A stretch of DNA of 64,000 nt from Paenibacillus sp. FSL H8-0332 (GTDB lineage: Bacteria > Bacillota > Bacilli > Paenibacillales > Paenibacillaceae). The stretch lies in contig NZ_CP150145.1 in the NCBI RefSeq assembly GCF_037963835.1, forward strand, positions 3,906,001 to 3,970,000, given 5' to 3'. This document shows, one piece after another, positions 40,394 through 42,434 of the stretch; the stretch's first letter is position 1, and each line of letters begins with the position of its first letter. The position numbers and the translations under genes were made by a program. The notes under the pieces were generated by a model. The model saw only the letters and a list, made by a program, of their open reading frames with translations. It was not told the origin of the DNA and did no database searches.

Positions 40394-40423
40394 TTGCAGC
40401 TGAGAACGATTATCAACTATACT
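40394..40423 (+). promoter_or_regulatory. Fur-controlled promoter of the AraC-lipoprotein ORF
   Basis: TTGCAG (40394-40399), 18-nt spacer, TATACT (40418-40423). The spacer holds TGAGAACGATTATCA (40401-40415), matching the Fur 7-1-7 box TGATAAT-N-ATTATCA with two mismatches in the left half and none in the right. Confidence 0.6.
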
Positions 40424-40457: not shown

Positions 40458-42434
40458 ATGGATTTTAAGGACCATATCGTGCTGTGGAATCATGCTACTG
40501 TAGAAGTTATCGATATCCGCAAGGCCTCATTCACTTCGGGACAACCTCCGTTGAAGTACCGCCTTCCGGCTAGTACATACCTATATATCGTTCGCGGCAA
40601 CGCAAGTATGCTTATAGATGACAGATCCTATGAGATCAGCGGCTCCAGCGTCTTTCATGGGGGCAAAGGCACCACGATCCAATTGCTGAAGACACAGGAA
40701 ATTCTGGATTATTACCTTATTATGTACCGGTCAACGTTAACCCTGCCTGCACGGCGCAATCTGACAGCACTGCTGGATCGCAGCAAGCCTTTTACCGGGA
40801 CCTATCAGTTCACTCCTGCCCACCCCCTGCCGCTGTACGAGCTTCTAGACCAGATGTATGGTGATTGGCAGACACGCCGCGCACTGGAGCATCTGCATGT
40901 CAAAGTCCTGTTCTATCAATGGGTCCATGAGCTGCTTCATCAGATGCAGGGGCAGGAGCTGCACCCGCTTAGAACAGATGTGCTCGACCAGGCTGTACGC
41001 TATATGCATGATTCTTACAGCAGGCCGTTCACCCTGGATACACTTGCCGACACTTTGGGCACCAGCCCGAGGACATTATCGAGGTTATTCCGCATGCGGC
41101 TTCAGAGCAGCCCCGCCCAATATCTGGTTCAGATCCGCATGGACAAGGCGCGTGAGCTGTTGCTGGGCACAGAGGCCACACTGCATGATATTGCTGTTGC
41201 TGTGGGCTACCCGGATGCGTATTCTTTTGGAAAAATGTTCAAGAAGCACTTCGGAAACGCTCCGGTGAGGTACAAAAATTCTGTACAGGCCGCTTTACCG
41301 TGGCGGGATATGCCATCTGCGCTGTCTGCATATGACATTGCCCGTGAAGGCACTCTCCGATATATTGATGATGATAATCATTATCAATATGATCTAAAAG
41401 GAGCGTCATCCATGTTCAGAACGGCCAAGCCATCCCTAATGTTTACCTTGTTGTTATGCTTCACCATAGTGTTAAGTGCCTGTTCCTCAGGAAATGCCGG
41501 TTCCAATGCAGCGGGCAGTGCCAGCCCATCGCCAACCTCTTCGCCTGCTACGACGGCATCCTCTACAACGTCCCCGGACAACACGGCAGCCGAGGCACAG
41601 ACCCGGACGATCTCTACGGTAAAAGGAGATGTCGTGGTGCCTGCCGATCCTCAGCGTGTCGTGGTGCTGTATCTGCTGGGCGATGTGCTGGCTCTAGGCA
41701 TCAAGCCCGTAGGTGTCTCTAGTGTAAATGAAGGTGCTGCCTTCGAGAATGAATTGAAAGATGTACAGAAGTTGGGAAGTTGGTTCGAGGCCAACCCGGA
41801 AGCTGTCTTATCGCTTGATCCCGATCTGATTATCGTTCCTTCTGAGGAAACCTACGCAGCACTGCATGACATCGCACCGACAGTGCTGGTCCCTTATGAG
41901 AAGATGACGACCGATGAGCGGGTAGGTTTCATTGGACATATTTTCGGCAAGGAAGAACAGGCTACCACCCTCTTGAACGACTTCCATGCCAAAGTGAAGG
42001 ACAGTAAGCAGAAGCTGCAGGACGCAGGAATTCTGGGTTCGACGATCTCCATCATGGAGGGCGGTTCAGACCGCAGTATGGTAGTGGTGATGAGCAAACA
42101 GTACGGCCGGGGTTCGCAGGTCATTTATGAATATCTCGGAATGAAGGCGCCTGAGCTCCTTCAGCAAAAAATTGATTCCAAGACCAATATGGGCGGTGAT
42201 ACCGTATCCTTTGAAGTATTGGCTGATTACAGCGGGGATTATATCTTCCGCTCCTCCTATGAAGGGATGGCTGATCTGACTAAAGACCCGCTCTGGAACG
42301 GCATCCCTGCAGTCAAAGAAGGCCGGTTGATGAATATCGACTTCGGGTTATCCTATTACAGCGATATTTACTCCCTGAACGCGCAGCTTGATTTCATTGT
42401 TGAGCATTTGCTTGCAGCACCACGGGTGAAGTAA
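40458..42434 (+). CDS. AraC regulator fused in frame to a siderophore-binding lipoprotein
   Basis: 658 residues, one uninterrupted ORF. Residues 1-180: cupin-like AraC sensor region. About 185-285: AraC HTH pair (LDTLADTLGTSPRTLSRLFRMRL; LHDIAVAVGYPDAYSFGKMFKKHFG). About 286-318: linker encoded by a promoter and Fur box. 319-342: lipoprotein signal/membrane helix ending LSAC. Then a Ser/Thr/Pro linker and a FecB/FhuD-type binding domain (VVVPADPQRVVVLYLLGDVLALGIKPVG). B. subtilis Btr also joins AraC and binding domains but lacks a membrane segment. Either a membrane-spanning siderophore sensor or an AraC gene that lost its stop codon. Controlled by Fur (inference). Confidence 0.75.
   Translation: MDFKDHIVLWNHATVEVIDIRKASFTSGQPPLKYRLPASTYLYIVRGNASMLIDDRSYEISGSSVFHGGKGTTIQLLKTQEILDYYLIMYRSTLTLPARRNLTALLDRSKPFTGTYQFTPAHPLPLYELLDQMYGDWQTRRALEHLHVKVLFYQWVHELLHQMQGQELHPLRTDVLDQAVRYMHDSYSRPFTLDTLADTLGTSPRTLSRLFRMRLQSSPAQYLVQIRMDKARELLLGTEATLHDIAVAVGYPDAYSFGKMFKKHFGNAPVRYKNSVQAALPWRDMPSALSAYDIAREGTLRYIDDDNHYQYDLKGASSMFRTAKPSLMFTLLLCFTIVLSACSSGNAGSNAAGSASPSPTSSPATTASSTTSPDNTAAEAQTRTISTVKGDVVVPADPQRVVVLYLLGDVLALGIKPVGVSSVNEGAAFENELKDVQKLGSWFEANPEAVLSLDPDLIIVPSEETYAALHDIAPTVLVPYEKMTTDERVGFIGHIFGKEEQATTLLNDFHAKVKDSKQKLQDAGILGSTISIMEGGSDRSMVVVMSKQYGRGSQVIYEYLGMKAPELLQQKIDSKTNMGGDTVSFEVLADYSGDYIFRSSYEGMADLTKDPLWNGIPAVKEGRLMNIDFGLSYYSDIYSLNAQLDFIVEHLLAAPRVK
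41338..41366 (+). promoter_or_regulatory. internal sigma-A promoter inside the AraC-lipoprotein ORF
   Basis: TTGCCC (41338-41343), 17-nt spacer, TATATT (41361-41366), transcription start near 41373, followed by a Fur box and a strong ribosome-binding site. It would express the lipoprotein alone. Confidence 0.55.
41372..41386 (+). promoter_or_regulatory. perfect Fur box inside the ORF
   Basis: TGATAATCATTATCA is an exact 7-1-7 Fur operator, at the predicted start site of the internal promoter. Confidence 0.85.
41412..42434 (+). CDS. siderophore ABC transporter substrate-binding lipoprotein (internal start)
   Basis: 340 residues if translated from the internal ATG 41412. AAAAGGAG (41396-41403) stands 8 nt before it, an ideal site. 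The product would begin with a standard lipoprotein signal (MFRTAKPSLMFTLLLCFTIV, lipobox LSAC, Cys24), then a low-complexity linker and a Fe3+-siderophore-binding domain (DPDLIIVPSEETYAALHDIAPTVLV; helix-backbone FecB type). No permease or ATPase gene is adjacent, so it would have to work with a transporter encoded elsewhere. Overlaps the long ORF above in the same frame. Confidence 0.65.
   Translation: MFRTAKPSLMFTLLLCFTIVLSACSSGNAGSNAAGSASPSPTSSPATTASSTTSPDNTAAEAQTRTISTVKGDVVVPADPQRVVVLYLLGDVLALGIKPVGVSSVNEGAAFENELKDVQKLGSWFEANPEAVLSLDPDLIIVPSEETYAALHDIAPTVLVPYEKMTTDERVGFIGHIFGKEEQATTLLNDFHAKVKDSKQKLQDAGILGSTISIMEGGSDRSMVVVMSKQYGRGSQVIYEYLGMKAPELLQQKIDSKTNMGGDTVSFEVLADYSGDYIFRSSYEGMADLTKDPLWNGIPAVKEGRLMNIDFGLSYYSDIYSLNAQLDFIVEHLLAAPRVK

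Follow-up and report, generated by a model that had tools for sequence, protein, structure and literature searches.

A conserved AraC regulator-lipoprotein fusion in Paenibacillus that probably nests a free siderophore-binding lipoprotein

A single open reading frame (ORF) of Paenibacillus sp. FSL H8-0332 joins an AraC regulator to a siderophore-binding lipoprotein, and it is probably a conserved nested gene with two products: a tethered AraC protein whose siderophore-binding domain lies outside the cell, and a free transport lipoprotein. What sequence and comparison can be taken to establish is a conserved fusion, a lipobox, the fold and a set of signals inside the frame (Fur box, ribosome-binding site and start). 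The gene lies in a window of 64,000 nucleotides (the whole stretch of DNA that was analysed), and coordinates below are those of the window. If the reading is true, Paenibacillus and a handful of soil-dwelling relatives would carry a receptor on the same piece of DNA as the membrane-tethered switch that belongs to it.

Structure of the Fused Gene and Its Predicted Protein

The initial annotation reported that no stop separates the AraC helix-turn-helix (HTH) domain from the lipoprotein signal, and the frame is indeed stop-free throughout. The features of the locus are as follows.

40394 to 40423, + strand: promoter-like TTGCAG-N18-TATACT, 5′ of the AraC start
40401 to 40415, + strand: predicted upstream Fur box TGAGAACGATTATCA, 2 mismatches
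40458 to 42434, + strand: fused ORF for the long product (658 aa, about 73 kDa), in the order AraC regulator, linker, lipoprotein signal/transmembrane (TM) helix, siderophore-binding domain
40458 to 40967, + strand: N-terminal AraC cupin-like sensor domain, about aa 1-170, strand-rich in the AlphaFold model
41043 to 41279, + strand: AraC-type HTH DNA-binding domain, HTH_18 (PF12833, by Pfam), aa 196-274
41283 to 41411, + strand: junction/linker, aa 276-318, translated in frame and mostly disordered by prediction
41338 to 41366, + strand: internal promoter-like TTGCCC-N17-TATATT, from a promoter scan
41372 to 41386, + strand: predicted internal Fur box TGATAATCATTATCA, in frame, codons GAT AAT CAT TAT CA (D-N-H-Y-Q)
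41396 to 41403, + strand: ribosome-binding site AAAAGGAG, 8 nt 5′ of the internal ATG at 41412
41412 to 42434, + strand: nested ORF of 340 aa encoding the free lipoprotein (about 37 kDa unprocessed)
41412 to 41483, + strand: lipoprotein signal peptide/TM helix, the helix spanning aa 325-342 and ending in the lipobox LSAC
41679 to 42341, + strand: Peripla_BP_2 siderophore-binding domain (SBP, by Pfam), aa 408-628

The AlphaFold model of the 658-aa protein, a monomer with a mean pLDDT of 82, consists in order of a folded cupin-HTH part, a disordered linker (aa 285-324, pLDDT <50), one 18-residue helix (aa 325-342), a disordered spacer (aa 343-379) and a folded SBP. The pLDDT of the cupin-like part is mostly above 80. 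In both sequence and fold the SBP most resembles hydroxamate-siderophore binders of the FhuD/FhuD2 type, and FhuD-family structures match it. The helix has the make-up of a canonical lipoprotein signal, its N-terminal side bearing positive residues. Its lipobox cysteine, Cys342, is invariant across 32 diverse fusion sequences. The short form has the features of a Fur-regulated siderophore-binding lipoprotein, namely a Peripla_BP_2 domain, a lipobox, a predicted Fur box and a ribosome-binding site before the start.

Signals Inside and Upstream of the Junction

The junction is translated and also holds a promoter, a Fur box and a ribosome-binding site, as initially annotated. The predicted Fur box TGATAATCATTATCA has 0 mismatches to the 7-1-7 consensus and is the sole perfect match in the 64-kb window. 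The promoter-like TTGCCC-N17-TATATT is present, though with just 9/12 matches. It is kept in close orthologues at silent positions too, GACATTG and TATATT being nearly invariant across 15 of them. The Shine-Dalgarno (SD) sequence, AAAAGGAG, stands where it had been placed, ahead of the internal ATG. The same scan returned a second promoter-like match, TTGATG-N17-TATGAT (41365-41393), which was discarded because its start point would sit in the ribosome-binding site.

The upstream Fur box lies within the spacer of the promoter-like TTGCAG-N18-TATACT, where it is conserved in orthologues. A Fur box with ≤2 mismatches was found ≤250 nt upstream of the AraC start in 60/75 homologues. Two lipobox fusions (L057 and L029) have the ribosome-binding site and internal ATG and no Fur box in the joint; in its place they carry double Fur-like sites upstream of AraC.

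Distribution of the Fusion

Searching 100 relatives with the full-length protein recovered uninterrupted homologues at identities between 88% and about 30%, with several to a genome. A search of 61 genomes with the AraC part only does not select for the fusion. In it, the close members of the AraC subfamily were all in frames of 580-718 aa, apart from one cut to 479 aa, and we found no unfused frame of about 300 aa of this subfamily. Named genomes were searched with an 8-sequence alignment as the query; the same fused structure occurs in many Paenibacillus, two Cohnella, one Brevibacillus and several Lysinibacillus. When 299 genomes were sampled across the phylum, only those of the same family gave full-length matches at E ≤ 1e-40. 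Thus, the fusion family is not general in Bacillota. No similar gene was found in a plasmid collection. The fusion is widespread in Paenibacillus, with several paralogues per genome. At two loci (L161:2781-6971 and L187:2935-6908) fused AraC-lipoprotein genes stand as tandem pairs on the same strand. The AraC domains of the lipobox-bearing fusions group in a tree as a single clade (100/100), and the Btr-type proteins fall in another.

Comparison of the junction in related genomes, which had been proposed as a check on the initial annotation, gave a uniform answer. The frame is open in 82/82 non-redundant homologues (proteins <80% identical to one another) from several genera, and the junction in 78/78 loci with a readable HTH. 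When the 129-nt junction of the window is shuffled, 9% of the shuffles are likewise open in the AraC frame, so an open junction in one genome alone is weak evidence. What makes it compelling is its recurrence, open and in phase, in the 82 homologues; a chance open frame is conceivable for one gene, not for 82.

Conservation of the Nested Start Signals

The lipobox of the TM helix is kept in 80 of the 82 non-redundant homologues, and so is a ribosome-binding site with an ATG, GTG or TTG start (80/82). The start was picked among these three codons in a fixed range, and the strength of this result therefore rests on the ribosome-binding-site match and the start position; the SD match is strong in 70 of the 80 lipobox homologues. 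The internal Fur box is found with 0-3 mismatches in 78 of the 82 (78/80 with a lipobox) and with 0-1 mismatches in 68. It falls in one codon phase in 78/78. In stand-alone siderophore lipoproteins of the same genomes (n = 32) the Fur-box phases divide 17/9/6, and each of the 32 genes has an in-frame stop a short way upstream. The fusion, TM lipobox, Fur box, ribosome-binding site and internal start are kept together down to about 30% identity.

Constraint on the junction is visible in the DNA. The Fur box hardly varies across 46 junctions, even at third codon positions. Among 15 close orthologues, pS rises from 0.10 in the Fur codons to 0.33 between the box and the ATG, 0.47 in the linker and 0.68 in the AraC and SBP regions. 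The contrast between 0.10 and 0.68 indicates that the linker carries regulatory DNA. The dN/dS values of the same orthologues are 0.21 for the sensor (aa 1-180), 0.13 for the HTH (aa 181-275) and 0.07 for the SBP; the HTH and SBP values indicate that both ends function as proteins. As expected of a nested in-frame gene, the initiation signals are conserved beyond what the protein requires.

The exceptions are few. Some members of the clade have no TM helix, lipobox or Fur box and are still fused, and this loss occurred at least twice independently. That the fusion outlives these elements argues that the long protein has a use of its own. Five loci (L109, L110, L127, L128, and L129) lost the Fur box and lipobox and kept the fusion, some with a vestigial hydrophobic stretch, in an apparent reversion to a Btr-like soluble regulator. 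At two others, L197 (Paenibacillus terrae) and L125 (G008), the AraC part is broken by a frameshift or stop and the lipoprotein frame is intact, which fits the expectation for a short form made independently. The AraC and SBP sequences co-vary only weakly (Mantel r 0.25), which suggests SBP exchange and counts against the proposed reading of the gene.

Proposed Products and Alternative Explanations

The initial annotation suggested that the locus makes two products. The joint conservation down to about 30% identity strongly supports this part of the proposal; the intact long form is what we infer beyond it. Expression of both products, their topology, ligand sensing and target genes we likewise infer. 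The AraC part is conserved, and any ribosome that translates it reads on into the lipoprotein, so AraC being made means that the long product is made. The short product is very likely made, because its Fur box, ribosome-binding site and start are kept at the DNA level.

In the proposed mechanism, iron limitation would cause Fur to release two promoters. The upstream promoter would give the 658-aa protein. Its AraC part would stay in the cytoplasm, its signal helix would span the membrane, and its FhuD-like domain would lie outside, where the export helix should put it. The internal promoter, written in the linker codons, would give the 340-aa lipoprotein, an ordinary substrate-binding subunit for an importer of the FecCD type. 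The long form would probably be a membrane-tethered one-component regulator, its anchored AraC sensing outside the cell the same ferric siderophore that the free lipoprotein delivers. It would then adjust transcription of uptake genes, as Btr does from the cytoplasm. One gene would yield a transport receptor and a regulator bearing the same receptor, and ligand specificity would thereby be matched by construction. FecCD permease genes lie directly 3′ of the fused gene at several loci (L166, with two in tandem, L175, and L183), so the lipoprotein at those loci is probably a transporter subunit. The window's copy has no adjacent transporter and stands alone between unrelated genes, which weighs against the reading.

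The nested design may explain how Paenibacillus scavengers pick which foreign siderophore system to turn on. For annotation, trimming or splitting such genes would drop one of the two products. The design also raises the question of how a lipoprotein signal peptide fares when a folded transcription factor precedes it in the cytoplasm. Lgt lipidates, and signal peptidase II cuts at the lipobox Cys. We favour a tethered sensor that is intact or transiently intact, and in its intact form the protein would escape this cut. Against an intact sensor, the invariant Cys342 makes the long form an inviting substrate for signal peptidase II, whose cut would part AraC from the sensor outside. The cut form is the main rival, and we consider it unlikely, though clearly the strongest of the alternatives. 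Here the long protein would be a polyprotein: after its insertion and its lipidation by Lgt, signal peptidase II would cut it at Cys342, leaving a lipoprotein and an AraC protein on a remnant helix, from which an intramembrane protease would perhaps free AraC later. Receptor production would then be coupled to AraC activity by the cleavage and not by an intact sensor. The canonical signal helix and the invariant Cys342 are what such processing predicts. However, the short form needs the same lipobox, so its conservation is no proof that the long form is cut. Signal peptidase II would also have to accept a folded cytoplasmic N-terminus of 320 residues, and lineages without a lipobox are still fused. 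A more elaborate idea, which we hold slightly more doubtful still, is a new regulator class in which AraC is tethered by a lipoprotein signal peptide, lipidation or the signal peptidase II cut at the lipobox uncouples or releases AraC from its receptor, and the Fur promoter in the codons also yields the free receptor.

It is improbable that the tethered regulator is instead a Btr-like cytoplasmic one, in which the hydrophobic segment of the long form stays uninserted and both AraC and SBP sense imported siderophore from the cytoplasm. Btr-type fusions with the same two domains do coexist in these genomes, and some members of the lipobox clade lost the TM helix and kept the fusion. Nearly all members, however, have a strongly hydrophobic segment with an invariant lipobox. 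The short form needs this segment for export, and no sequence feature would mask it in the long form.

A little less probable again is a long product that is a non-functional by-product, with AraC acting from degradation fragments and the frame open because the promoter, Fur box and ribosome-binding site crowd out stops. The strong DNA-level constraint on the junction agrees with such crowding. Yet the stand-alone genes combine this Fur box with stops and have it in any phase, which means that these signals do not force an open frame, and the frame also stays open in lineages that have neither Fur box nor lipobox. Finally, recent loss of the AraC stop codon, raised as an alternative in the initial annotation, or a sequencing error has in its favour only the share of shuffled junctions that open by chance, and is ruled out by the comparison across homologues, the frame being open in several genera and the AraC subfamily having no unfused relatives in the AraC-only search.

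Comparison with Known Systems

Btr is a bacillibactin-responsive AraC-SBP regulator that acts in the cytoplasm. The fused protein shares with Btr (YbbB) of Bacillus subtilis (NF049932) an AraC HTH and a Peripla_BP_2 domain on one polypeptide. The two were contrasted in the initial annotation, correctly. The window protein scores 51.4 bits against the 900-bit cut-off of NCBIfam NF049932, the match covering aa 128-273 in the HTH region only, and unlike the soluble Btr-type proteins it has the TM helix and the invariant Cys342. The joint of the Btr-type relatives in these genomes has no TM helix, lipobox, Fur box or internal start, and their AraC domains form the separate clade. At six loci (L073, L076, L078, L081, L084, and L096) a Btr-type AraC-SBP gene is followed directly by a separate gene for a Fur-regulated lipoprotein, an arrangement that may follow the same logic with the parts unfused.

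Transmembrane transcription regulators of the ToxR/TcpP/CadC kind (PMC10269533) share a cytoplasmic DNA-binding domain, one TM helix and an extracytoplasmic sensor with the fused protein, for which this layout comes from sequence and model. The fused protein differs in its AraC-type HTH, in a TM helix that is a lipoprotein signal and in an outside domain that binds siderophores and is also encoded as a nested free protein. The text of that survey does not mention AraC, lipoproteins or periplasmic-binding domains. The Fur-regulated siderophore-binding lipoproteins of the FhuD/FeuA type share the Peripla_BP_2 fold, lipobox and Fur-box promoter, and FecCD follows at some fused loci. Whereas the stand-alone genes have an upstream stop and a variable Fur-box phase, the promoter of the fused gene lies within the coding frame of the regulator.

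A study of Gram-positive siderophore loci (PMC13293324) is the nearest description in the literature searched, in which we found no account of an AraC-lipoprotein fusion or nested siderophore receptor. It counts 229/6,023 Peripla_BP_2 genes with a co-occurring domain, HTH_18 in 98.7% of these, and reports for Paenibacillus the highest receptor-to-synthesis ratio for siderophores. The Pfam pair is the same as here; the junction, membrane topology, internal Fur box and nested start are not described in the sections consulted. The fused protein would work like Btr and like the transmembrane one-component regulators, yet by curated score and predicted topology it is not a Btr.
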